IMG/VR virus record: IMGVR_UViG_3300044632_000562
Location: 1 to 20,435 of that record
DNA from: a virus
Reading direction: 5' to 3' (one strand)
DNA length: 20,435 nucleotides
Each line of letters begins with the position of its first letter. The stretch's first letter is position 1. This document shows, one piece after another, positions 791 to 17,652 of this stretch. The translations under genes were made by a program, and so were the position numbers. The notes below the pieces were generated by a model. That model was not told where the DNA came from. It saw only the letters and a program-made list of their open reading frames with translations, and searched no databases.

Positions 791-3700
791 CTAGCTACCT
801 ACAGCGACCTCCATGACGATGCCGTTGATGGTCAGGCCAGAAGGATGCGATTGCCGCACCACAATCGACCCGTCTTGGCTCCACGACGGAAGCAGCGTGA
901 CCTGTCGCTCCAGCGAGGTCGCCGTCGCCGGCAACACCGACTCCTCGACCAGATCGAACTCGCTAGGACCGATCTGAAAGTTGGCGTCGCTGGCATCTAC
1001 GCGCAGCCACGCCTTGTTGACGTTCTTGGTGCGGCCCTGGCCCATGCCGTCGATCTGCATGGCGATCGGAAGCGTCTCCAGATCGGACTCGTACGGGATG
1101 CCGGCCTTGACCGCCGTCGCATGGGCAGGCAACGTGAACTCGCCGGTCCCGTCAACGACGATGCCGGAGTAGGTCGTTCGATCAGCAACAACGTCGATCG
1201 TCTTGGCAGCCAAGTTGGTTGCGCCGGAGAACGTCGATCGCGCCCATGCCCACGTTGCGATGGCCGTGTTCCGCATGGCGACCGGCAACTCGACAACAAG
1301 CTGCGCCCGAGCCTGCGCGCTGCTGATGCGCTGGACGACCAACAGGCGGTAGGCGACGCCACCCGATCGAAGCTCCAAGTAGTCGCCTACATCCGTCGGA
1401 AGGAACACCGAGCCGCTAAGGGAATCGGTCACGGTGACGAACGAACCAGCCTGCCAACCGCCGTTTTCAAACTCGGTCACGGTCAGCGATCGACCGCCCG
1501 TATGCGTGCCATCGAACGACACGCTGCTGTCGAGGTAGTTGTCCGCATCGCCGGTCGCCCGAACGTCGGTTAGCCGCTCGATGTAGCGCGCCGACGCTCC
1601 GTTGGTAGTACGCAAAACAGCGCAGTAAAGGCTGTCAACGTTGCCCTCACGAATGCAGGCTACCGACTCAACCACGCCATCGGTGTCGTGCTGGTGCCAT
1701 GCGACAACCTCTTCCTCTGGAATGTAGGTCATGCCAAGCAGCTTCCCCGAGGAACTGGCAAACCAGACGATCGGCAGCGGCGAACGCATGTAGGCCAAGT
1801 CCGCAATCGTGTAGTCGTCGAAGAGGTGCGCCGCCCGCAAGCTCAAGTCGGAAGTCGTGTAGCCTTGCGCGTTGAAGTTGAACCCGATCTGGCGCACATG
1901 CCCGCCCATGGCGGCGCAGAACACGGCGACGTTGTTGATGACCGCTGGGGTGACAAAGCTCGATCCGATGTAGCTTTGCGGCCGCACGGCGATGGTCGTA
2001 GGCGTAACCGCATCGCTGTTGACCGCCGTCACTCGCCATTCGCTGTTGTCGGTCAGTACAAGCAACTCGCCAGAACTGACCAAGTGCCGAATGACGTTGT
2101 TGTTGCGAGCCTTGACCGTGAACGCGATGCGGTCGGTATCCTTGATCGGAATACCGAAGCTCAGGTCTTGATCGGTGTTGCTTCGCGTCATCCAGATCTT
2201 GGATGGATCGCCAACCGTACCAGCCAAGACCTTGCGCTGCTCAAAGTACGATACCGCTCCAGGGTAGGCCAACTGCGGGTTAGAACTCGGGGCCAACGCC
2301 GTGTCCAAGATCGAAGGCGTGCGACTCAGATCAGGCGTGATGTTGTCGTCCTTGAACGTGACGTTAGATGCTGTGTCTGCTTGCCCAATCCACCCGAACA
2401 GGCCGCTGGTGCGCTTGTAGATGTTGTAGCGACGGGCACCGGGGACCTGCGTCCAAGTCAAGATGTTGTACGTTTCGCGGGCATACAGGTTGTTTTCAAC
2501 GCTGATTTGTGCGCTTGGCTGGCTCTCGTTGTCGTTGTCGTCTACAGCCGTAACGACGTAGTAGTTGAGGGCTTGGCTGTCGTCTGGCCACAGTTCCGCA
2601 AAGATGTCAGGGTCAATAGTCCTTCCGCCTGATGGGTACGATGTGCCAATAGTCACCTCTAATCTCTGCCCAATGCCAAGAACGGCTTGCGCAAGATTTG
2701 TTTGGCTGTTGGCCTTGACCTCAAACACAGTGTTGGACGCATTCGACGCCGTGCTGTACACACGCGACACGGTGAAAGTGTTGCTTGCGACCTTTGCGTG
2801 CAAACCAGTAGGCGAACCAGATGGCGAACAAAAAAACTTGACCGTATCGCCAGGAACAAGCGGAACAACTTCGTCGTGAAGCGTCTTAAAAGCGCATTCG
2901 GCAGTCGTTTGGTAGCCTTGAAGCCATCTTTCGCACCGTATACGAACTGCGCCGAATGGCTGCCCAACGAGTCCGGTCGGTGCGGCAATCGGGGGAACGT
3001 AACTTGCGTAAGCCCAACTCCACTGAAGATCCGTAAGCCGCGTCAAGACAAGCGTTGGCTTATTGCGATGCGTCAACGTCAACTTGTTGTTGTCCTGTGC
3101 GTAGGTCAACTCCATCAACTGCGTGTCTGAGTAGCTGTTCGGGTGCGTGAGGCCGGACGCCGGAGACACCAGCGACCAAGTAGACACCGAGTTGTTGTTG
3201 ATCGCGTAGTTGACCCAGTTGGCTGTCGCAGCACTCGACGAGAACGTCGCAGAGTTGGTGCTGTAGTAGTTGCCAAGCCCTTGGTCGAGGCGCAGCGAGC
3301 CTTGCGGGTAGTACGCTGCAATCGTAAAGCTGTTGGTCCCTGCGCTGGAATACGCATTGATCGTCGTGCCGGCGACTGACTCCTTGATCTTGAAGGTCGT
3401 GCTCGACAGCTTATCAATGTAGTACAGCGCGCTTGTGCCGATAGTTGACGTTGGCGTCACAGCAGCCGAAATCTTGAGGGCTGGAACCGCAAGAAGTGTT
3501 GATGCTGCCGGCGTCATGGTGCCGGTTTGCTGACTTCCGACCTTCAGTCTAAACTGCGATGCATCAATAACATCGATGTAGTACCAGCGAAATACCGAAC
3601 CAGATTCTTGCAAGATCACGGCGTCGTTTTGTCGAAGGCCGTGATTGACGTTTGTAGTAAAAATGCCTTCGCTATCTTTATGAGTCCATGTTCCTAGGTC

Positions 3701-4174
3701 ACGCACTTGCGCCGGACCAAGCGTCAGGGCCGTGTATACCGCGCCGACGTTTGCCGCTGTCAGCCCATAGATCGTTACCGGCGCATCGTTCGGCAGGTTG
3801 TCAAGGTTGCCCGCAGTGATGGTCCAGATGCCCGTCGAAGTGTTGACGGTGCAGGCCCGCGCAACGAAGTAGTTTTCCGCCGTCAGGGCGATCGGTGCCC
3901 CGTTGCGGTAAAACCGTACGTTGCTGGCACTGAGTTCCAACATCATGTCGGGATCGCCCTGAAAAGGGATCATCCGCGACTTGGTTGAGTTGCTGAACGC
4001 CGCGCCAACGTACTGCAACCCTGGACGCCGCTTCGCTGCCCCCTGCGGCTTGATGTACATGTTGCGGCACTTTTTCAGACCAGACTGGTGGGCTTTCTGG
4101 TCGATGCGCCCGTACATCTCCGGGCTGACTTCGCCAGCGTTGAACGCAAGTTGAATGGCACGAGTGTTCGGCAT
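791..4174 (-). CDS. Tail nozzle protein, gp12 / tail tubular protein B-like
   Basis: 1127 aa. The N-terminus carries the family hallmark LAFNAGEVSPEMYGRID (9-25), then IKPQGAAKRRPGLQYV (41-56). A region at 535-625 looks like a fibronectin-III fold (YYVVTAVDDNDNE, then GARRYNIYKRTSGLFGWIG), and YPGAVSYFEQRKVLAGT (637-653) is another conserved block. Such proteins form the distal nozzle of short non-contractile tails, bound to a gp11-like adaptor. At 1127 aa it is longer than T7 gp12 (about 800 aa). The additional length includes beta-rich segments (about 160-290) of the type phages use as decoration domains. It starts two bases after the esterase/adaptor stop, with no clear Shine-Dalgarno, so coupling is likely. 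Confidence 0.82.
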   Translation of the reverse strand: MPNTRAIQLAFNAGEVSPEMYGRIDQKAHQSGLKKCRNMYIKPQGAAKRRPGLQYVGAAFSNSTKSRMIPFQGDPDMMLELSASNVRFYRNGAPIALTAENYFVARACTVNTSTGIWTITAGNLDNLPNDAPVTIYGLTAANVGAVYTALTLGPAQVRDLGTWTHKDSEGIFTTNVNHGLRQNDAVILQESGSVFRWYYIDVIDASQFRLKVGSQQTGTMTPAASTLLAVPALKISAAVTPTSTIGTSALYYIDKLSSTTFKIKESVAGTTINAYSSAGTNSFTIAAYYPQGSLRLDQGLGNYYSTNSATFSSSAATANWVNYAINNNSVSTWSLVSPASGLTHPNSYSDTQLMELTYAQDNNKLTLTHRNKPTLVLTRLTDLQWSWAYASYVPPIAAPTGLVGQPFGAVRIRCERWLQGYQTTAECAFKTLHDEVVPLVPGDTVKFFCSPSGSPTGLHAKVASNTFTVSRVYSTASNASNTVFEVKANSQTNLAQAVLGIGQRLEVTIGTSYPSGGRTIDPDIFAELWPDDSQALNYYVVTAVDDNDNESQPSAQISVENNLYARETYNILTWTQVPGARRYNIYKRTSGLFGWIGQADTASNVTFKDDNITPDLSRTPSILDTALAPSSNPQLAYPGAVSYFEQRKVLAGTVGDPSKIWMTRSNTDQDLSFGIPIKDTDRIAFTVKARNNNVIRHLVSSGELLVLTDNSEWRVTAVNSDAVTPTTIAVRPQSYIGSSFVTPAVINNVAVFCAAMGGHVRQIGFNFNAQGYTTSDLSLRAAHLFDDYTIADLAYMRSPLPIVWFASSSGKLLGMTYIPEEEVVAWHQHDTDGVVESVACIREGNVDSLYCAVLRTTNGASARYIERLTDVRATGDADNYLDSSVSFDGTHTGGRSLTVTEFENGGWQAGSFVTVTDSLSGSVFLPTDVGDYLELRSGGVAYRLLVVQRISSAQARAQLVVELPVAMRNTAIATWAWARSTFSGATNLAAKTIDVVADRTTYSGIVVDGTGEFTLPAHATAVKAGIPYESDLETLPIAMQIDGMGQGRTKNVNKAWLRVDASDANFQIGPSEFDLVEESVLPATATSLERQVTLLPSWSQDGSIVVRQSHPSGLTINGIVMEVAVGS

Positions 4175-4176
4175 GG

Positions 4177-7100
4177 CTAGCGAATGCTGATCCAGCTAGG
4201 GGTGTGCGAGGGCTTGATCTCGGCCTGCGTAGTCTTGTCGTGCGACGATGCCTGCATCATGTATGCAGTAGCCATCTGAGCGCACCGCTTGGACTCGGCG
4301 GCCCCGACATCGCCCTTGATGATCGGGCCAGCCAGCATGGACGACAGGTGCCACGACAAAGCGATCGTGAACAGCGTGCTGAACAGCGTCGTGTCCACGA
4401 TCTTCGCGTTGTAGCGGATGACCGCCTCCTCTTGGTTGGTGTAGAGGATGCGGTTCCCGTGGATGTCCGACTCGACTACGAACTTCTGCGGGATCAGCCT
4501 GCCGTTCACCACCCAATCGTCGGCGGCGTCGGGAGGCATCACCGCCAAGATGCCGCTGGCGTCCGCCGGCACTTCGTAGGCGTACTCCCATTCCGAGCGC
4601 GGGTTGTCCGTCTCGACAAGAGCCTTGCGCTTCAGAGCGAACGACCAGCTACCCATTTCAAGCAGGGTGTCGCGGGCCAGCGGGTAGAAGCGAGCGCACA
4701 GAGCGGCCTGCGCCGAGCCGTCCGGCGGGTCGATGCTTGTGACCTTGGCCGTCTCCCCGATGTTGGCAAGAGCCAAGTTGCAGATGTCCACCTCGCTGGT
4801 GCCCATGCGCTGCACGGCAATCCACGCTTCGTAGAACCTCTGACCCAGCGTGTTCATGCCGGCACCCGTGTAGTGGATGCCGTCGAACATGACGGGAAGG
4901 TCGCTCGTCTCAATCGCACGCGAGTAGGGGTCAGCGTCCGTCATCTTGGTGATGGCGGCGTTGACCGTATTGGCGTAGGTCCACAGCACGTTCGGGCGCA
5001 CCTTGGACGCCATCCACGGGATCTTGTGCGGGCTGACGCTGGCAAGACCACGGTCCACGATGGCCTGCCGGATGACCTGACGTAGCTTGGTGCAGTTGGC
5101 GTAGTAGCGGCTGGCGCGGCTTTCCGATGTCGCGTCTTCTTCGCCCTGCGCCCAGAAGATGCCCACGCACTCGCCAGTGTCGCCCTGCAAGGCGAACGCG
5201 GTCTTGGCGGCGTCGAGGACATCCAGCAATCGCCCAAAGCAGTTGTTCGGGTCGCCCGGTGCCCAACTGGTCTGCTGGTCTGGGTCGTGCCAGCCGTAGC
5301 CCGTCGCGCCCAGAGCGGTCGTCTCCCGCTGCGCCAACCCGCTGCCGCTGAAGCCAAGCGGAATGACATGCATGGCTTCGCCAAGGTACTCATGCATCCG
5401 CAGGGCAAGGCCAACGTAGTGCCCCTGCTTCGGCTGGATGCCCAGCGACGGCCCTTGGAACGGCTGGTACATGCCTGCCACGGGCGTGTAGTGGTTCGGG
5501 TAGTTGAACCCAGGCGGGTACGGGTTGCGCTTGTCCTTCTGGTGCTGCAACGCCAAGAACCCGGTCGATGCGGTGTAAGCACTTGAACCCGTGATGGGCG
5601 TGCCGCCGTAGGTCGCGGTCAAGTTGTAGGTGCCAAGCGTCCCAGTGGGCTGCAAGAAGTACGAACGACCGTAGACGACCTCCAGCGGGGTGCTGGTGCT
5701 GATGATGTCAAACACATCGTTGGTCGCCGGAGCCGAGCCGAACGGCGCGGCAAGCTGAGCCACCGTGCCCGACGCCGTGAGGATCTGCCTGTACTGGCCA
5801 GCGAGCGCGCCGGTTCGGAACAGTACGACCTGATCTGGGCCGTAAGGGCCTCCCGCCAAGGTGGCGCAGTTGATGACGCTTGCGGTCGATCCCGCCGCGA
5901 CCGTGCTGTTTGTCGAGGCCGCCCTACCGCCGCCAAAGATCGCAACCTGAGTGTTGGCAGCAAGGATGTCGGTCAGAAACGTGACGGTGATCGGCTGGCC
6001 CGCCCCAGCGCACGCGCATGTGGTCCCAGCGGGCTGCGTGCCCTCGGCCTCGCCCTCAAACGGCGACCACGGCAGCCACAAGGCGAACTTGTTGAACGGA
6101 GTGCTCTGCCCGCTGATGGTTGGCGGCTGGATCGAATAAGTGTCGCCAGCCAACGTGTTGTTCGTGAACGCAGGGCTGACCTCCAGCACGAACTTGCCAG
6201 TCGCCGCGTCGTAGTAGACATCCCCACAGGATCGCGTCTGGTTGGCGTTGCTGCCCGTGAGCGGGGTGATCGTCAGGCCCGTCAGCGACCCACGAGCTTG
6301 GTAGGCGCGCTCTGCGAACGTCTTTTGGTAGCTGTTGGCTGCCGTCAACAGGTCTTGCCCAGCCACTTGCGTCATGGTGATTGGCAGGCTGCCGACCGAA
6401 CCGATGGTGACGCCTTGCAGCGTGATGCGCCGCTCCGCCGTTGGCTCGTTGGTTGTGCTCGACAAGCCGGAGATCGTGTAGGTCGTGTTGGCGGTGATGC
6501 CTGACGGAAGGCTCGCACCAGAGAACTGCACCTTGTCGCCGATCGTTACGAAGTGCCCTTCAGCCAACGTGATGTGGTCCGTCGATCCCACGGCAACGCT
6601 TGCCACCGCCGTCGTGGTCGGGCGGCGCAGGTAGAACATCGTTTCGGTGTCTTGGACGGTCAGCACGCTGTTCGTTGCAGCCGATGCCGATGTCACCTGA
6701 ACGAACGTCGGGTAAGGAGTCCTACTCAGTTGAATGTTCTGCTCCAGCGGACCAGTCAACGTCACGCGAACGTAGTAGTCCACGCCAGCCAAGAAGCTGC
6801 CAGTAGACGACTCAAACCGAATGCGGTCGTTGTCCGCCAACCCAGAGTTGAGGAACACATCGGCCCCGGTCGATTGAACCGTCAGAGTGCTCGTGCCAGC
6901 ATTGTATCCAGTCACGGTTGCCGAGATCGGTCTGCACTTCTTGGCGACGATGTAGTCTCCAAAGGCGTCCTCGGTAAACGATGAGACGATGCCCTGCGGG
7001 ACAGCAAGCGAGAACAGTGCCAGCACTGCCGTAGACGGAATCAGCACCGATCCGCCTCGCGTTGCAGACACTTGTATGTCCGATCCAGACGATGTGACTA

Positions 7101-7998
7101 CCCAATACGACTGCTGCGCACTCATGCCGCCGGGGATGGCTCCACTGACGCGGATGCAGTCGTTAACCGTGAACAGGTTGAATGTTAGCGTAATGGTGCC
7201 CGTCGTAGTGTTGATCCCAGTTGATGGCATCGCCAGCACCGCCCCTGGATCTGTCGCCCCACGCACCTTGACCGCTTCACCAACGCGCACAGGCTGGTTG
7301 CCGATGCGGAAGCGCGTAGGCACCTTGTTGGTCAAGTAGCCCGGCGTCGCGTAGATCTGCGCCGAAACGCCTACCGTGTAGCTGCCAGGGTCGTTGACGC
7401 CGCCTAGGACGCTACGCAGCAGCACCGTGCTCGTCGTGCCATTCGCTCCGCCAACGAAAGGATAGGTGAACTCCTCTCCAACCTCCGGCAGAGGCGACAG
7501 ATCTGGGCTGACGCTCACCTCAGAGTCGCTGGAGTTCGTCACCGTGTACGAACGCCCGTCGCGCTTGCGCGTGATGGTCAGCCCCGTCGCGTCGTACTGC
7601 CACTTGCAGTTCGTGACCAGCTTTCGCACCGACGATCCAGCCTGCACCGTGCAAGTGCCAGGGTACTTCGTAAACGACGCCCCCAGCACGTTGGTCTGCG
7701 TCGGCACCGGGTCGTAGAACGTCAGCATCTTCACGGCTTGCACCGCAAGGCCCTTGGTGCTGACCGTCTGCCACGGGCTGCTCTTCGGCCCCGTGCCGTA
7801 GCGAAGCGTCTGCCGGCCTCCCGCGAACGTCACCGGCAGCGTGAACGTGTCGCTGTAGCTGCCTTCCCCAAACTGCGTCGGGGCGATCTGCGGATTCCGC
7901 AGAGCGATTTGGAGGTTCTGGTCCTCCCAAGACTGGGCATCACCGATCGCGGTGCTGTTGCTCTGCCCGACTGCCAACAAGAACTTGCGCTTCGCCAT
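4177..7998 (-). CDS. SGNH/SASA-type esterase fused to gp11-like tail adaptor
   Basis: 1273 aa. Residues 7-20 (LLAVGQSNSTAIGD) match the GQSN nucleophile block of SASA/SGNH carbohydrate acetylesterases (Ser13). The matching later blocks are far downstream: QGPSLG at roughly 865, WAQGEED (949-955) and DGIHYTGAG (1039-1047, Asp1039/His1042). Between them lie roughly 800 residues of beta-rich tail-type sequence with repeated 'G-x-YYV...xLS' motifs. From Met1065, MGTSEVDICNLALANIGE and ARFYPLARDTLLEMGSW are hallmarks of gp11/tail tubular protein A, the adaptor that links portal and nozzle, and the 209-residue length fits that family. No stop and no good Shine-Dalgarno precede Met1065 (codon 4804-4806), so a true fusion is favoured over a separate gene. 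The ATG at 7998 has a good GAGGTG site. De-O-acetylation of host surface glycan is inferred. Confidence 0.75.
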   Translation of the reverse strand: MAKRKFLLAVGQSNSTAIGDAQSWEDQNLQIALRNPQIAPTQFGEGSYSDTFTLPVTFAGGRQTLRYGTGPKSSPWQTVSTKGLAVQAVKMLTFYDPVPTQTNVLGASFTKYPGTCTVQAGSSVRKLVTNCKWQYDATGLTITRKRDGRSYTVTNSSDSEVSVSPDLSPLPEVGEEFTYPFVGGANGTTSTVLLRSVLGGVNDPGSYTVGVSAQIYATPGYLTNKVPTRFRIGNQPVRVGEAVKVRGATDPGAVLAMPSTGINTTTGTITLTFNLFTVNDCIRVSGAIPGGMSAQQSYWVVTSSGSDIQVSATRGGSVLIPSTAVLALFSLAVPQGIVSSFTEDAFGDYIVAKKCRPISATVTGYNAGTSTLTVQSTGADVFLNSGLADNDRIRFESSTGSFLAGVDYYVRVTLTGPLEQNIQLSRTPYPTFVQVTSASAATNSVLTVQDTETMFYLRRPTTTAVASVAVGSTDHITLAEGHFVTIGDKVQFSGASLPSGITANTTYTISGLSSTTNEPTAERRITLQGVTIGSVGSLPITMTQVAGQDLLTAANSYQKTFAERAYQARGSLTGLTITPLTGSNANQTRSCGDVYYDAATGKFVLEVSPAFTNNTLAGDTYSIQPPTISGQSTPFNKFALWLPWSPFEGEAEGTQPAGTTCACAGAGQPITVTFLTDILAANTQVAIFGGGRAASTNSTVAAGSTASVINCATLAGGPYGPDQVVLFRTGALAGQYRQILTASGTVAQLAAPFGSAPATNDVFDIISTSTPLEVVYGRSYFLQPTGTLGTYNLTATYGGTPITGSSAYTASTGFLALQHQKDKRNPYPPGFNYPNHYTPVAGMYQPFQGPSLGIQPKQGHYVGLALRMHEYLGEAMHVIPLGFSGSGLAQRETTALGATGYGWHDPDQQTSWAPGDPNNCFGRLLDVLDAAKTAFALQGDTGECVGIFWAQGEEDATSESRASRYYANCTKLRQVIRQAIVDRGLASVSPHKIPWMASKVRPNVLWTYANTVNAAITKMTDADPYSRAIETSDLPVMFDGIHYTGAGMNTLGQRFYEAWIAVQRMGTSEVDICNLALANIGETAKVTSIDPPDGSAQAALCARFYPLARDTLLEMGSWSFALKRKALVETDNPRSEWEYAYEVPADASGILAVMPPDAADDWVVNGRLIPQKFVVESDIHGNRILYTNQEEAVIRYNAKIVDTTLFSTLFTIALSWHLSSMLAGPIIKGDVGAAESKRCAQMATAYMMQASSHDKTTQAEIKPSHTPSWISIR

Positions 7999-8023
7999 GG
8001 AACACCTCGGTCAGATAGCACAA

Positions 8024-8079: not shown

Positions 8080-8622
8080 TCAGGCGATCGAGAAGCCGCT
8101 CGGGTAGAACTGACGACCGTTCTGAACGTCCTTCACCATGACAGCGGTGGCGGAGAACGAGTAGGTCGGAGTTGCCGCAGAAGTGAACAGCGTGACGGTG
8201 ACGCCGATGTATCGACGGCCCTTGTAGTCGGCAGCACCCGTCAGCGGGTTGAAAAACTGATTGCTCGGGATCGAGGCAACGAACTGCTTGTTAGCGAACG
8301 AGGCATTGGGAATGCTGCCTCCAAGCTGAACCCTGCAAATTTCGCTGACCGTCGCAAGCTGGATCGTGCCACCGCTCACGGTGTCGGCAGCGACGAGCGC
8401 AAAGCTGCCACCAGTAATCGTGCCGCTTGCAAGCGTCACGGCCGACGTGAACGTGAACACGACATGCAGCGGCTCGCCCTCCAGAGCGCGAACCTGCGTC
8501 AAGTCGATCGCGTTCTCGAAAATCAACGCCCCAGTCGAGTTGCTGGCAGCCGTGCCAGAAAACGACTGAGCGGCAAACGAAGGAGCCGTTCCGGTGAACG
8601 AAAGAAGTGCGTCGGTAATCAT
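8080..8622 (-). CDS. Capsid cement / decoration protein, Bbp16-like
   Basis: 180 aa, starting MITDALLSFTGTAPSF. The ATG at 8622 is chosen because AAGGAAA lies at good spacing upstream; the frame extends further but overlaps the capsid gene. The protein is beta-rich, with Thr/Ser/Ala-rich strands and no hydrophobic helix. Its position directly after the major capsid gene and its N-terminal sequence resemble the cement protein of BPP-1-type capsids, which sits on the outer capsid surface and stabilises it. The gap to the capsid stop is 17 bp. The family assignment is from memory of sequence style and synteny. Confidence 0.7.
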   Translation of the reverse strand: MITDALLSFTGTAPSFAAQSFSGTAASNSTGALIFENAIDLTQVRALEGEPLHVVFTFTSAVTLASGTITGGSFALVAADTVSGGTIQLATVSEICRVQLGGSIPNASFANKQFVASIPSNQFFNPLTGAADYKGRRYIGVTVTLFTSAATPTYSFSATAVMVKDVQNGRQFYPSGFSIA

Positions 8623-8639
8623 GTGTGTGTTTCCTTGGA

Positions 8640-9683
8640 TTACGCCGGGACAACGGCTTCGGTGGAGGTGAGAGCATCGACCTTGCGGACAGGAATGCCC
8701 TGGAAGGTCAGCCACGACATCGGGGTGCCGAACTGCGACAGGCCCTTCTCGATGTCAAGAACGCCCTGCGTGCGGTCCATGGCCTGGATGCGCAGCGCGC
8801 TGTACAGCGTGCGGTTCATGTAGAAGCACGGCTTGATGCCGCCGAACGACGGAATGCGATCCATCGCACGGGCCATCAGCTTGATGATGTTCGTGGCAGC
8901 ACCCGTGCTCTGCGCGCCGCTGCCCGAGGTGGTGAAGACGCCATCCGTGCCCGAGCCGGTGTCGATGTTCGCAATGCGAACGACGTACCGCCAGTCCTTG
9001 ACCGCAAGACCCGGCTTCCACTGGAAGCGCGAGACGTACGCTTGCATGCGGTTGTCGCCCGAGAAGATCGTCTGGATGCCCAGATCTTCCTTCATCAGGC
9101 CCGCGTTGCTGCCCTTCGGGAACGGGCAGTAAACCGTACGATCCGACCAGCCGAGGAGGTAGATCGAAGCGTTGTTGCTACCGGAGCCACCACCATGCAG
9201 CACGTTCACGCTGTTGCCAACGGAAGTGGCGCGACTGTTGTAGCGGTTCGCAAGACCAAGGAACTGCTTGGGGTCCGTAGCCGGATTGCCACCGAACAGG
9301 CCCTGCACGAAGGTCTGGTTCATCGACTCGATGAACGCGGAGTCTTCCGTAAGGCGGAACTGGCTGGTGTTGCCGTTCAGCTTGGCGAGGTCAACGTCCA
9401 TCTCCGAACGCGCCTCGATCATCGCGCACGCCTCGTCCACCTGAGCCGTCGTGCTCTTGCTCGACGGGATGCCCGAGTTCAGAGCGCGGTAGTAGGTCGT
9501 CGGGAGGCCGGTGCGGATGATGACTCGATCGCCGGTCGGGAGGTTGCCTTCCTTCCAAACGCAGTCCTCAAGGACTTCGTTGGTCTGACTCAGCAGTTCG
9601 GCGATGTCGCCAATGCTGCCGTCGGGGTGAACACGCTTCGACCAGTCGGCCAGCGTGAGGTTGCTGCTTCCAAGAACTGCCAT
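8640..9683 (-). CDS. Major capsid protein (BPP-1-type)
   Basis: 347 aa, beginning MAVLGSSNLTLADWSKRV. The length, position between scaffold and cement genes, and the blocks NEVLEDCVWKEGNLPTGDRV (about 35-54) and MARAMDRIPSFGGIKPCFYM fit the major capsid proteins of BPP-1-like podoviruses, which adopt an HK97-type fold. It would assemble the icosahedral shell on the scaffold encoded just upstream. The 21 bp before the ATG contain no recognisable Shine-Dalgarno (see findings), so the start rests on family-like N-terminal sequence and close spacing to the upstream stop. Confidence 0.83.
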   Translation of the reverse strand: MAVLGSSNLTLADWSKRVHPDGSIGDIAELLSQTNEVLEDCVWKEGNLPTGDRVIIRTGLPTTYYRALNSGIPSSKSTTAQVDEACAMIEARSEMDVDLAKLNGNTSQFRLTEDSAFIESMNQTFVQGLFGGNPATDPKQFLGLANRYNSRATSVGNSVNVLHGGGSGSNNASIYLLGWSDRTVYCPFPKGSNAGLMKEDLGIQTIFSGDNRMQAYVSRFQWKPGLAVKDWRYVVRIANIDTGSGTDGVFTTSGSGAQSTGAATNIIKLMARAMDRIPSFGGIKPCFYMNRTLYSALRIQAMDRTQGVLDIEKGLSQFGTPMSWLTFQGIPVRKVDALTSTEAVVPA

Positions 9684-13183: not shown

Positions 13184-14356
13184 TCAGACGTACTGGAGGT
13201 AGATGTCGCCGTCAGCGCCGCCGGTTGGCGACGCCGTACCGCTGCTGATGTTTTGCGTTGCTGCGCTGCCGAGGCCGAGCGTCGTGCGCTGCGATGCGGC
13301 GTCAGCGTCATCAATCAGTGCGCGGCCTGCTGCGGTGCATGAGATTGTCTCGGGAACGCCAGTGCTTGGAGACTGGCGACCGATCAGCGTGTCGGTGGCG
13401 AGGTTCGCCATCTTTGACAACGTGACCGCGCCCGTGGCGATCGTAGTCGTGTTACTGCCGGCGGATGCCTCGACATCGCCAAGCAACTGGCTGCGCCTGA
13501 TGCCGCTACCGTGGAACTCGACACCGTTGCCAACGCCGACTTCCTGCGGTGCCCCGGTGCTACCAGCGTGCCGGCCAACCAGATGGTGGCTGGTGATGTC
13601 CTGCATCTTGGCGAACGTGACAGCCGCATGGTCGATGGTCCACGTTGCGCCAGACGCCGAGACGGTGATGTCGCCCTTGTCGCCGTCCGTCACGCCGCCA
13701 CCAGTCGCCGCCAGCGTGGTGCCGGTCATCGAAAGGCCCGATCCGAGCGTGATCTCTTGCACGTCGCCCGAGCCGCTGTCGCCACGGCCAAGCAGCCGCG
13801 ACGCCGCCGAGACGTTCTGAATCTTGGCGTATGTCACGGCATCGTTGGCGATCGTCGCCGCGAAGCTGCCCGTGCCGCTGCCGGTGACATCGCCGGTCAG
13901 CGTGATGGTCTGATCGCCTGTGTTCGTGCCGCTGCTGGTGCCGCTGAACGTGCCCGACTGCGTCGCCAGCGTGCCAAGGCCCAGCGTCGTGCGCTGCGCC
14001 GCCGCGTCAACGTCATCGAGGATTGCTCGGCCTGCTGCGGTACAGGCAATCTCCTCGATGTCGCCAGCCCCCGCCGTGCTGCGCCCGAGGAGGCGATCCG
14101 TAGCGCTGACGTTCTGGATCTTTGCGTACGTCACCGCGTCGTTGTCGATCGTCCACGTCGCGCCGCCTGCGCTGACCGTGATGTCGCCCTTGTCGCCAGT
14201 GGTCAGGCCCGTGCCCGCCGCCGCCACGACCGCCCAGTACGTCGTCCACGAGCCGCCGACGCCCGGCTCGTCGCTCGCGCTGCTCGTGTGGTCCAGAATG
14301 CAGACGTAACTGCTGCCACCGTTCCCGACGACCTGCCCGCGATAGTAGACGGTCAC
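13184..14356 (-). CDS. Tail fibre protein with internal repeats
   Basis: 390 aa from a GTG at 14354-14356, chosen because AGGGGG lies at good spacing and the codon overlaps the previous stop (GTGA); a GTG two codons earlier is too close to it. After an N-terminal YYRGQVV...YVCILDHTS region, the protein consists of repeated blocks: 'AVTxxKxxxxxxxxLxGR' at about 74-92, 173-191, 245-262 and 310-327; GDKGDITVSA-GATWTID at 54-71 and 225-242; and CTAAGRA..DD.DAA.QRTTLGLG at 105-128 and 340-363. This is the usual make-up of elongated trimeric fibre shafts. It probably reaches the host surface with the smaller proteins encoded next to it. Confidence 0.8.
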   Translation of the reverse strand: MTVYYRGQVVGNGGSSYVCILDHTSSASDEPGVGGSWTTYWAVVAAAGTGLTTGDKGDITVSAGGATWTIDNDAVTYAKIQNVSATDRLLGRSTAGAGDIEEIACTAAGRAILDDVDAAAQRTTLGLGTLATQSGTFSGTSSGTNTGDQTITLTGDVTGSGTGSFAATIANDAVTYAKIQNVSAASRLLGRGDSGSGDVQEITLGSGLSMTGTTLAATGGGVTDGDKGDITVSASGATWTIDHAAVTFAKMQDITSHHLVGRHAGSTGAPQEVGVGNGVEFHGSGIRRSQLLGDVEASAGSNTTTIATGAVTLSKMANLATDTLIGRQSPSTGVPETISCTAAGRALIDDADAASQRTTLGLGSAATQNISSGTASPTGGADGDIYLQYV

Positions 14357-14628
14357 GACCACGCCCCCTGGTACTGCGACAGGAAGATGCCGTCAGGAAT
14401 GGTCCCACCCCACGACCCGGCCCACTGGAGATTGCCACCGCCCCCAGTGGAACTGATGACTTGCCACGAACCGTCGCCCGCCAAGAACTCGTCTACGTTT
14501 CCGCTGTAGACCAGCGACGCGCCTTGAGAGAAACCCAGCCGCAACACTTCACGACGGAGCACCTCGCCAGCCACAGGGATGTTCCTGGGCTGGTCGCGCT
14601 CACCGCCGCGTCTGCTGCTTCCAGACAT
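14353..14628 (-). CDS. Small fibre-associated protein
   Basis: 91 aa. The first 25 residues are Arg-rich. LGFSQGASLVYSGNVDEFLAGDGSWQVIS is a common phage fibre motif ('FLxGDGxW'), and the C-terminus is Gly/Trp-rich (GGNLQWAGSWGGTIPDG). Its ATG overlaps the preceding TAA (TAATG), and its TGA overlaps the fibre start (GTGA), so the three genes are translationally coupled. It could be an N-terminal attachment segment of the fibre that has become a separate gene. No frameshift signal was noticed at the junction. Confidence 0.6.
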   Translation of the reverse strand: MSGSSRRGGERDQPRNIPVAGEVLRREVLRLGFSQGASLVYSGNVDEFLAGDGSWQVISSTGGGGNLQWAGSWGGTIPDGIFLSQYQGAWS

Positions 14629-15139: not shown

Positions 15140-16825
15140 CTAAAGCTCCGTTGACGCTGGGCTGTTGTAGCCGCTGAACATGTTCATCACATCGGTCAGC
15201 GCGCTGGGTTCGCTCGTCTTGGCGGCGGCCAAGTTCTTGGCGGTCTGCGATGACTGCTGCATGACAGCCGCCTGTTCGCGTGCGGCCATCGCCTTGTTGC
15301 GCGCATCGCGCAGGGCCTGGGCCTTCTCAGTCGGCACGATGATGTTCGGATCGATGCCGAGCATGTCGCCGTAGCGATCGACCAGCGTGTCGGTGTCGAG
15401 CTTGTCCAGCACCTCGGGACGCATTTGCGCGACCGCGCCGACGTTGCCGATGAAGCGGTCCACCGACGAACTGCCAACGGCGCGCTGGGCCTGTGCAAGA
15501 ACCGACACGAACTCGACGCCGAGGTTGACGCCGCCAAGCTCTTCTGGTGCCGGCGGGATGAGACCTTGCTCCAGCATCGCGTCGAAGGTCAGGTCGATCA
15601 GCGGCTCCAGCAGTTCGTTCTGCAACCGCTCCATGACCGGGCCGAGCATGAGCAGTTTCTCCTCGTGCCGCTCTTGGATTTCTCGCGCAGTCATGTTGCT
15701 GCGGAGGTCGTTCTGCATCATCAGGAACAGGTCTTCGTAGAACGACCGGCTGATGCGCGAGCGAACGTCTTGGATGTCGTTGAGCAGGTACTGGAGGTTG
15801 AGGTTCGTCTCGAACGCGGTACGGATGCCCTGCTGCTGCGGCGCGTCGTGGAACGTGACGCCGCCCGGCAGCATGTTGACCGCACGGCCCTGCATGCTGG
15901 TCGGGGCCTGCAACGGCGGCTGGGTCTGGTAGTCGATGCCCTGCGCCTTGCGAAGCTGCTCGTGCTGAAGCTGGCGGATGTCGGGCAACGCCTCCATGCC
16001 GGGGCTGTTGCCGTAGACATCGTTGGCGGTCACCGACCAGCGCGGAGCCAGCACCGGGAACTTCTCGAACCCCGACTCGCGCAGCACGACCGGCTCGTTG
16101 TTGCTCTGCTCGTAGTAGACCGAGCGGTACGGCATGTTCATCTTGTCGAGCTTCGACGGGTCGCGGTCGTAGCGAGGCTCGATGCAATGGATGATGGTGA
16201 TGCCGCCTTCTAGCGTGCCACGGTCGTACAGCGTGCGTACCGAGTGCGAGCACTTGTCGTAGCCAAACTCGCGGACGACCTGCGCGACGGTCATCTCAAA
16301 CTCGCGGTAGAAGACGCAGACCTTGCCCTGCGGGTCTTGCGACAGGCAGTACTCGCCTGCGGTGATCGGGTAGAGGTGGATCACCTTCTCGGGGTCAGGC
16401 AGCAGGATGGAGACGCCTGTGCCGAACGCGCCAAGCTCCTCGTACATGGAGTGCAGTGCGCGGTAGGCGTTCGACCGCTGGAACACCCGCATCATGCGTT
16501 GCTGAACGTCCTCCAGCCAGATCTTGACCGGGTGGAACTGGTTGAGGTCAGGGTCTGGCGCGGCGAGTCGAAACCAAGGGCGGGCTGGCGAAGTCGCTCC
16601 GGCCATCAAGCCCGAGTTGAGCGTTCGCAGGGCGCGGGTCGCCGTGTTGTCGTAGATGTTGGTCTGCCGCTTGTTGCCCTTGTTGCGATCGGTCGTGTAG
16701 TAGCGACCTGACCACGGCAGCAGGTACTCGGTGATCTCGCGCCAGTGGGTGTCCCACGACGTACGCTCCGTCTTGAGCGAGCTATGTCGCTCTTGGAGTC
16801 GTTGGCGAAGCGTACGCTTGTCCAT
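15140..16825 (-). CDS. Portal protein (head-to-tail connecting family)
   Basis: 561 aa from ATG 16823-16825, preferred to the GTG two codons earlier because GGGTGAG then has proper spacing. WREITEYLLPWSGRY, then NIYDNTATRALRTLNSGLMAGATSPARPWFRL near the N-terminus, is the hallmark of the podovirus 'head to tail connecting' portal family. Later blocks include QPPLQAPTSMQG, the helical YEDLFLMMQNDLRSNMTAREIQERHEEK typical of the portal stem and wing, and an Ala/Gln-rich helical C-terminus. It would form the 12-subunit ring through which TerL packages DNA and to which the gp11-like adaptor binds. Length is normal for the family. Confidence 0.88.
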   Translation of the reverse strand: MDKRTLRQRLQERHSSLKTERTSWDTHWREITEYLLPWSGRYYTTDRNKGNKRQTNIYDNTATRALRTLNSGLMAGATSPARPWFRLAAPDPDLNQFHPVKIWLEDVQQRMMRVFQRSNAYRALHSMYEELGAFGTGVSILLPDPEKVIHLYPITAGEYCLSQDPQGKVCVFYREFEMTVAQVVREFGYDKCSHSVRTLYDRGTLEGGITIIHCIEPRYDRDPSKLDKMNMPYRSVYYEQSNNEPVVLRESGFEKFPVLAPRWSVTANDVYGNSPGMEALPDIRQLQHEQLRKAQGIDYQTQPPLQAPTSMQGRAVNMLPGGVTFHDAPQQQGIRTAFETNLNLQYLLNDIQDVRSRISRSFYEDLFLMMQNDLRSNMTAREIQERHEEKLLMLGPVMERLQNELLEPLIDLTFDAMLEQGLIPPAPEELGGVNLGVEFVSVLAQAQRAVGSSSVDRFIGNVGAVAQMRPEVLDKLDTDTLVDRYGDMLGIDPNIIVPTEKAQALRDARNKAMAAREQAAVMQQSSQTAKNLAAAKTSEPSALTDVMNMFSGYNSPASTEL

Positions 16826-16827
16826 GG

Positions 16828-17169
16828 TCACTCACCCAAGAGGGTGTTCTTGCCGATGCGGTCCATCTGGTCACCGATGCGGGTGTTGCCTGTCAGCAGC
16901 GTGCTGGCAGCACCTCGGCCCTGCGCGCCCTGTTCGCCGGTCAGCAGCGCGGCGACATCCGGCGTCTTGCCTTCCATGCGGCGGCGTTCCATGCCGGCCA
17001 TCTCGCGTTCCGAAGCAGCCATTCGGGTCGCTTCGTTCTGTGCCTTCTCTTGCTGACGAAGAGCTTGCTTCTGGCCTTTCTTGGCCGTTTCGGCTGCGTA
17101 GACAGTAGCTCCTGCCCCTGCCATAGCAGCCGCCGCCGCCAAAAGAACTGTTCCGGTTGCGATTGCCAT
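16828..17169 (-). CDS. Conserved small phage protein with N-terminal hydrophobic segment
   Basis: 113 aa. The ATG at 17167-17169 follows an AGGAAGTGA site; the frame extends upstream but would overlap the GNAT gene. MAIATGTVLLAAAAAMAGAGATVYAA is hydrophobic and could span a membrane. A Lys/Gln/Glu/Arg helical stretch follows, then a C-terminal pattern TPDVAALLTGEQGAQ...STLLTG...GKNTLLG. From memory, that last pattern recurs in small proteins encoded near phage portal genes. The function is unknown. The stop overlaps the portal start region. Confidence 0.65.
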   Translation of the reverse strand: MAIATGTVLLAAAAAMAGAGATVYAAETAKKGQKQALRQQEKAQNEATRMAASEREMAGMERRRMEGKTPDVAALLTGEQGAQGRGAASTLLTGNTRIGDQMDRIGKNTLLGE

Positions 17170-17171
17170 AT

Positions 17172-17609
17172 TCACTTCCTGTAGGAGTTCTCGACCAGTT
17201 CGTACCCCAGCTTGCCGTACAGATTGCCGACCTTTTTGCTGATGGCTGGGATGCTGCTGACAATGACTTGATCGGCGTTCTTGCTTTCGGCCCACGCCTC
17301 AAACTGGCGCAGCATGCGAACGGCGGTCATGCCGTGTCGGTGCCCTGGCTTCATCCACCAAGCGAGTTCGGCGGCGACTGTGCAGTTGGGAGCGCACCAA
17401 ACTGGTGCCAGCATCCCAGCCAAGAAGCCAATCAGTTCGCCGTTGATGTCTTCGGCAACGATGATGACGCCCTGCTCGATGATGTTCGACAGAGCGGCGG
17501 CCATACCCTCGTCGGGCACGGTTACGCCCTTCAGCATGGGGTGCTGATTCAGGAATGGCCGGCCTAGCTCAACTAGAGCCAGTACGTCATCTTGCGTGGC
17601 GTACCGCAT
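17172..17609 (-). CDS. GNAT-family acetyltransferase
   Basis: 145 aa from ATG 17607-17609. MRYATQDDVLALVELGRPF (beta1/alpha1), VIIVAEDINGELIGFLAGM (beta2-3), then AAELAWWMKPGHRHGMTAVRML, the acetyl-CoA-binding motif A, and VGNLYGKLGYELVENSYRK (motif B) give a complete GNAT fold. It would transfer an acyl group from acyl-CoA to an amine; the substrate is unknown. A GTG at 17648 in the same frame would add 13 residues, but that stretch matches the non-coding duplicated element, so the internal ATG is preferred. It sits between TerL and the portal, so it is probably co-expressed with late genes. Confidence 0.8.
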   Translation of the reverse strand: MRYATQDDVLALVELGRPFLNQHPMLKGVTVPDEGMAAALSNIIEQGVIIVAEDINGELIGFLAGMLAPVWCAPNCTVAAELAWWMKPGHRHGMTAVRMLRQFEAWAESKNADQVIVSSIPAISKKVGNLYGKLGYELVENSYRK

Positions 17610-17652
17610 TCTCAGCGACGCTAGGTCGCCGGAAAAACACTCATGCACCCCG
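17610..17652 (-). repeat. Intergenic element copy A
   Basis: The 43 nt between the TerL stop (TGA, 17653-17655) and the GNAT ATG match the 42 nt at 10639-10680 in 35 of 44 aligned columns. The element starts CGGGGTGCATG directly after the stop codon and contains a GCGAC/GTCGC stem with a 5-nt loop. No Shine-Dalgarno is obvious ahead of the ATG. Confidence 0.7.

Follow-up and report, generated by a model that had tools for sequence, protein, structure and literature searches.

Known adaptors of PHROG 394 (BPP-1 Bbp14, T7 gp11, P22 gp4, KP32 TTPA, and Carin 1) are stand-alone head-tail proteins of ~190 to 230 amino acids. Connectors of the gp11-like and gpW-like types form dodecamers under the portal, and SASA enzymes act on sugars, from which they cleave O-acetyl groups. 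Adaptors and other connector rings tend to be viewed as conserved structural parts, with host recognition sought in fibres and spikes; glycan-directed display at the neck is known from the phi29 neck appendages, which are separate proteins. Here, we describe a gp11-like adaptor fused to an N-terminal SASA/SGNH esterase module, encoded by a single open reading frame (ORF) of 1,273 codons at positions 4177 to 7998 of a 20,435-nucleotide stretch of viral DNA (the complete IMG/VR virus record IMGVR_UViG_3300044632_000562; hereafter, the window). Its C-terminal 209 residues resemble the PHROG 394 adaptors and lie in the same gene order, but the adaptor is fused where those are free. L-numbers below denote relative contigs or loci, and G-numbers denote their records.

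The original prediction, made from the letters of the window alone, had described one uninterrupted frame with GQSN (Ser13), WAQGEED (residues 949 to 955), DGIHYTG (Asp1039 and His1042), and, from Met1065, a 209-residue adaptor. The frame was found at exactly these positions, on the minus strand, and every motif matched; the fusion is confirmed and its interpretation as an esterase domain joined to a gp11-like adaptor supported. The N-terminal part matched SASA (PF03629, residues 911 to 1060, E 1.3e-12, 48.3 bits against a curated cutoff of 24.8), and the adaptor part matched phrog_394 at nearly full length (residues 1067 to 1273, profile positions 2 to 188 of 190, E 2.3e-39), the solved podophage connector 8ck1 chain E, and BPP-1 Bbp14 (53% identity). 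Each domain is genuine and present at full length, and a single chain links them covalently. The adaptor domain itself is complete, and the fusion, in which 1,064 in-frame residues precede it, is a variant architecture. That adaptors are normally stand-alone proteins of ~200 residues was borne out among 138 other adaptor ORFs, all of which had at most 115 stop-to-stop residues ahead of the domain.

The whole 1,273-codon frame recurs in contigs of seven other IMG/VR samples (97 to 100% identity), and divergent relatives are fused as well (L014 at 81%; L016 and L017 at 63% adaptor identity). Profile searches added the fused members L030 to L033, L111 to L126, L135, L148, L149, and L151, reaching down to ~40% adaptor identity; the survey of related phages that had been proposed thus recovered both fused and free-adaptor forms. 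Across the junction (residues 1031 to 1100), the window and L014 differ in 10 codons, all synonymous with no nonsynonymous change (1, 0, and 9 substitutions at codon positions 1, 2, and 3); the junction is under purifying selection. A sequencing error that removed a stop near 4806, raised at the outset as a possible cause, is excluded because the ORF recurs in the seven samples and in divergent relatives and the junction carries no nonsynonymous change. All fused gp11-type adaptors form one clade in the adaptor tree (Shimodaira-Hasegawa-like approximate likelihood ratio test [SH-aLRT], 98), for which the simplest reading would be one old fusion event, retained since; L015, the sole "unfused" row within that clade, comes from a contig that starts inside the adaptor. 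One fused relative (L021/L029, contig IMGVR_UViG_3300049043_000052) has many frameshifts scattered along the gene, a pattern that looks like uncorrected long-read error, not like gene splitting. Fused forms were absent from 50,697 cultured-phage records (queried with the window, Ad1-type, and gpW-type proteins) and from 55 adaptor loci in bacterial genome contigs. Vibrio phage ALK and Pseudomonas phage JG054, considered as longer fused matches, were rejected because the genes are separate. A BFVD model (A0A516LTA4, 1,084 amino acids, 27% identical) suggests that public databases already contain unlabelled family members.

Structure prediction was run for residues 1 to 1064 of the window, which yielded the SGNH (alpha/beta/alpha) fold, and for the whole of L032, a fused relative of 771 amino acids whose insert is short, which yielded both the SGNH and the adaptor folds. 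The window model had a mean predicted local distance difference test (pLDDT) score of 69, with most of the esterase core at 85 to 96. The first modelled strand (residues 2 to 11) ends at GQSN and is followed by a long beta-rich insertion, after which the SGNH fold resumes at about residue 840. The two separated parts align jointly on the acetylxylan esterase 1zmb (Z score 23.2, 2.0 Å, 220 residues), with further fold matches to 2apj (Z 23.0) and NanS (Z 20.6); by sequence, the alignment to 1zmb is weak (E 0.21), with QGE and DGIH in register. The window retains an intact Ser13-Asp1039-His1042 set, and family and fold together suggest that its module is a glycan deacetylase. The insertion is 69% identical to that of L014, versus 96 to 99% for the esterase parts and the adaptor; such rapid divergence in the window lineage is as expected for a surface-facing part.

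The original prediction was right about the fusion and missed that the module also sits on other connector types. With the SASA part as the only query, 51 places were retrieved, and all 49 that were readable and assignable were fused C-terminally to a connector: 29 gp11-like, 10 Ad1/DnaT_2, and 10 gpW-like (the remaining two being one truncated place and one with an unassigned C terminus). Where scanned, Ad1 tails matched DnaT_2/"head-tail adaptor Ad1" (PF20557, phrog_477, E about 1e-30) and gpW-like tails matched phrog_2545/118, with L150 assigned by alignment and synteny only. The fusions occupy the gene positions where Ad1 and gpW connectors normally lie: gpW-type fusions between the large terminase (TerL) and a lambda-type portal (L127, L144, and L150), and Ad1-type fusions downstream of a MuF-like gene, directly before the head closure protein Hc1 (L131 and L142). 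The gpW-like tails match residues 112 to 168 (the tube domain) of the roseophage R4C adaptor (E 1e-4); Ad1-type tails had no sequence match among solved structures. In the place with the unassigned C terminus (L133:6733-7224), the same SASA subfamily is fused to 164 amino acids without a Pfam or PHROG match, perhaps, by analogy, a fourth connector type.

Carrier and module do not always travel together. In the SASA tree, the gp11 carrier L149 groups with the Ad1 carriers L131 and L136 (SH-aLRT, 98), and its SASA part is 66% identical to that of L131. The Ad1 carrier L130 is nested among gpW carriers (SH-aLRT, 99); it shares 65% (SASA) and 68% (insert) identity with gpW-fused L139, and its Ad1 domain shares 84% identity with that of L137, although the SASA parts of the two are only 42% identical. 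These groupings and the L130 identities indicate that the esterase module has moved between carriers. We lean, with slightly better than even confidence, toward a mobile esterase or glycan-binding module that can be grafted onto any portal-proximal connector, giving podophages and long-tailed phages alike a covalent 12-fold collar of receptor-modifying domains where head and tail meet, diversified by swapping, much like tail fibres.

For the protein itself, we consider it probable that it is a head-tail adaptor whose N-terminal SGNH module forms a neck collar of ~12 copies and deacetylates or binds a surface glycan. About twelve copies of the fusion would assemble below the portal through the C-terminal adaptor domain, and a short rigid helix would hold the twelve esterase modules radially around the neck, each bearing a variable beta-rich arm. 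The modules would bind acetylated O-antigen, capsule, or exopolysaccharide at the host surface; those with an intact Ser-Asp-His set, as in the window, would also remove acetyl groups, aiding adsorption or passage through the glycan layer. Exchanged between phages, the module would ride on whichever portal-proximal connector is available (gp11-like, Ad1/DnaT_2-like, or gpW-like). The sequences by themselves show a single selected frame with two complete folds, a conserved fusion, exchange of the module, and the lack of a detectable second adaptor.

Several points weigh against a catalytic neck collar. The copy number of ~12 and the upper-tail position are extrapolated from homologous dodecameric rings; the insertion is poorly modelled, with pLDDT below 50 across long stretches; every fused member found is metagenomic; and the esterase could possibly be released by proteolysis after assembly. 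Moreover, among 21 distinct gp11-type members whose N terminus can be read, 7 have Asn in place of the catalytic Ser (Ser13 in the window), a change seen in a well-supported clade, and the catalytic Asp is missing from most gpW-type members, so catalysis cannot be the general role of the module; some members without Ser or Asp probably only bind or have reduced catalysis. These losses favour an account in which the SASA part serves chiefly to bind glycan or as a structural element of the collar: an esterase fold exapted, with little or no catalysis, to anchor the virion to glycan or to brace the ring against the capsid. Pointing the same way are the N-terminal immunoglobulin (Ig) domain of the R4C adaptor, which contacts the capsid (PMC10276861), and the virions of Pseudomonas phage DEV, which carry an esterase-like fibre domain and showed no lipopolysaccharide hydrolase activity (PMC10925440). 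GQSN, QGExD, and DxxH are, however, retained in the window and in most members (among those readable at both ends, 13 of 21 gp11-type members and 10 of 19 others keep Ser, Asp, and His), and conservation is higher in the esterase core than in the insert; we regard a mainly noncatalytic collar as an unlikely, though serious, alternative.

A second alternative is that the gene yields a free adaptor as well as the fusion, either through proteolysis or through internal initiation at Met1065, in which case only some ring subunits would bear SASA. Met1065 is the exact start position of free adaptors (BPP-1 MASEVDICNLAL) and is kept in the closest relatives; the nearest relatives whose adaptor is free start it at precisely this residue, which hints at the origin of the fusion. 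GAGG or AGGAG lies near that ATG in L016 and L126. In the window, however, Met1065 lacks a Shine-Dalgarno sequence, as had been noted, and GAGGTG stands ahead of the 7998 start instead. The ATG is missing from eight members (L117, L119, L120, L135, L148, L149, L032, and L033), and in L148 the stretch from 25 codons before the position to 5 codons after it contains no ATG, GTG, or TTG; given members without a start codon there, an internal start was rejected as a general rule. The predicted link is also a helix and not a loop. In the L032 model (pLDDT 82), the esterase fold matches 1zmb (Z 24.3) and the adaptor fold matches the Carin 1 connector (Z 20.1), T7 gp11 and KP32 TTPA being additional Foldseek matches for the latter; a single uninterrupted helix (residues 521 to 559) starts as the final helix of the esterase and continues as the first of the adaptor, so the link between the domains should be rigid. 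We judge two products to be improbable.

Each of 13 fused contigs (21 to 45 kb) had one gp11-like adaptor place, the fused one (present as two fragments of a single gene in G012, a record with frameshifts), and the profile search found no second adaptor in these contigs, which may be incomplete; the fusion is thus very probably the adaptor of these phages. Among unfused relatives, 16 of 17 lacked any SASA ORF, and a SASA protein acting in trans was rejected, as only 1 of the 17 carries one. In that record (L039, G016:C1:38744-39442), the SASA ORF (423 amino acids) lies elsewhere in the genome and is possibly an ordinary deacetylating fibre or enzyme. The remaining alternative, an assembly or sequencing error that joined two genes, started from the single-contig origin with nothing further in its favour and has a negligible probability, given the seven-sample recurrence, the relatives down to ~40% adaptor identity, and the selection on the junction.

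Table 1. Coordinates of the fusion ORF, its parts, and neighboring features in the window
Feature	Position	Strand	Details
SASA-adaptor fusion ORF, 1,273 amino acids	4177..7998	minus	ATG 7998..7996, stop 4179..4177; recurs in L007-L013, L023-L028
Shine-Dalgarno GAGGTG ahead of the fusion-ORF ATG	8003..8008	minus	sequence
SASA/SGNH N-terminal part, residues 1-95 (strand 1 and GQSN)	7714..7998	minus	Ser13 codon 7962..7960
Beta-rich insertion of ~727 residues within the SGNH domain, residues 96-822	5533..7713	minus	fastest-diverging part
SASA/SGNH C-terminal part, residues 823-1064 (WAQGEED and DGIHY)	4807..5532	minus	Asp1039 4884..4882, His1042 4875..4873
gp11/tail-tubular-A-like head-tail adaptor, residues 1065-1273	4180..4806	minus	phrog_394; 8ck1 chain E, E 4e-17; Bbp14
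Nozzle/tail-tubular-B-like protein, 1,127 amino acids, downstream of the fusion (BPP-1 Bbp13 position)	791..4174	minus	phrog_376, E 4e-154
Upstream ORF, BPP-1 bbp16 position (true start may be lower)	8080..8715	minus	weak phrog_427
Major capsid protein, GP7 family	8640..9683	minus	PF20911, E 1e-114
Portal/head-tail connecting protein	15140..16831	minus	PF12236, E 4e-183

The gene neighbourhood (Table 1) has the order capsid, adaptor, nozzle, with the GP7 capsid gene upstream and the phrog_376 protein downstream, as in BPP-1. The nozzle protein, aligned end to end by phrog_376 over 710 positions, compares with ~681 amino acids for BPP-1 Bbp13 and appears to carry large extra regions likewise; no significant sequence similarity was found between its extra region and the SASA insertion. 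Between the portal and capsid genes, an ORF of 392 amino acids (13184 to 14362, minus) has weak tail-fibre profile matches and degenerate repeats (DKGDITVSxxGxTWTIDxDAVTYAKIQNVSA) and is a candidate head or tail fibre. A GNAT-type acetyltransferase gene (17172 to 17648, minus; phrog_1249, E 2e-18) adjoins the large terminase gene, as bbp24 does in BPP-1, and the same phage encodes a predicted deacetylase as well. An Mtd-type tropism protein was not found in the fused phages by a check in which BPP-1 was positive, which hints at room for another host-recognition device. The 39-kb genome of Limnohabitans phage DC33 (PQ492659, L002) is placed in Inoviridae in GenBank, which looks wrong because its adaptor is Bbp14-like (53% identity) and the genes around it are laid out much as in BPP-1.

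Many phages may carry a neck collar of such enzymes or sugar binders. If so, the labels that automatic annotation assigns ("tail protein," "head-tail adaptor," and "hypothetical") would conceal a class of host-interaction proteins, and parallel SASA fusion to three connector types that searches do not relate would mark the neck as a favoured glycan-active site. A testable consequence is that the N-terminal module should track the host glycan and the C-terminal module the virion type.

The SASA part shares its fold and the GQS, QGExD, and DGxH motifs with PF03629 enzymes (NanS, 1zmb, At4g34215, and SIAE) but differs in that its SGNH domain is split after strand 1 by the long insertion and is fused to a virion ring protein. 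An esterase-like domain presented on the virion, as proposed here, is known from DEV gp53, the deacetylating fibres of G7C and N4-like phages, and the Pan3 tailspike (SGNH domain Z 22.8 to the window model). Those are separate trimeric fibres or spikes, docked noncovalently, whereas the esterase in the window is part of the adaptor chain. Fibres of the DEV gp53/G7C type have a virion-anchoring N-terminal domain ahead of the esterase; the window protein has no such N-terminal anchor, its SGNH strand 1 beginning at residue 2, and would be held by its C-terminal adaptor domain. A region of the phage N4 tail complex (PDB 9lc0 chain N, 1,190 residues; SGNH-like region 733 to 971) also matches the window model (Z 12.8). 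The upper tail had been called an unusual site for a receptor-modifying enzyme, a claim partly softened by DEV gp53, a fibre with an esterase-like domain that projects from a collar at the adaptor (PMC10925440), and by roseophage R4C (8gtd), whose dodecameric gpW-type adaptor has an N-terminal Ig-like attachment domain of ~106 residues outside the capsid (PMC10276861). R4C shows that an adaptor tolerates an extra N-terminal domain, as in the fusions here, but its domain is not an enzyme fold. Searches of the open PMC subset turned up no account of an esterase, or of any enzyme fold, fused to a connector, nor of a single module carried by several types of connector. Lactococcal neck passage structures (NPS) carry swappable glycan modules (PMC6669499; PMC10684548), and the NPS tips of 936 phages vary among phages (PMC6669499); these modules are likewise directed at glycans from the neck but belong to separate proteins, which assemble a ring or appendage of their own around the connector.

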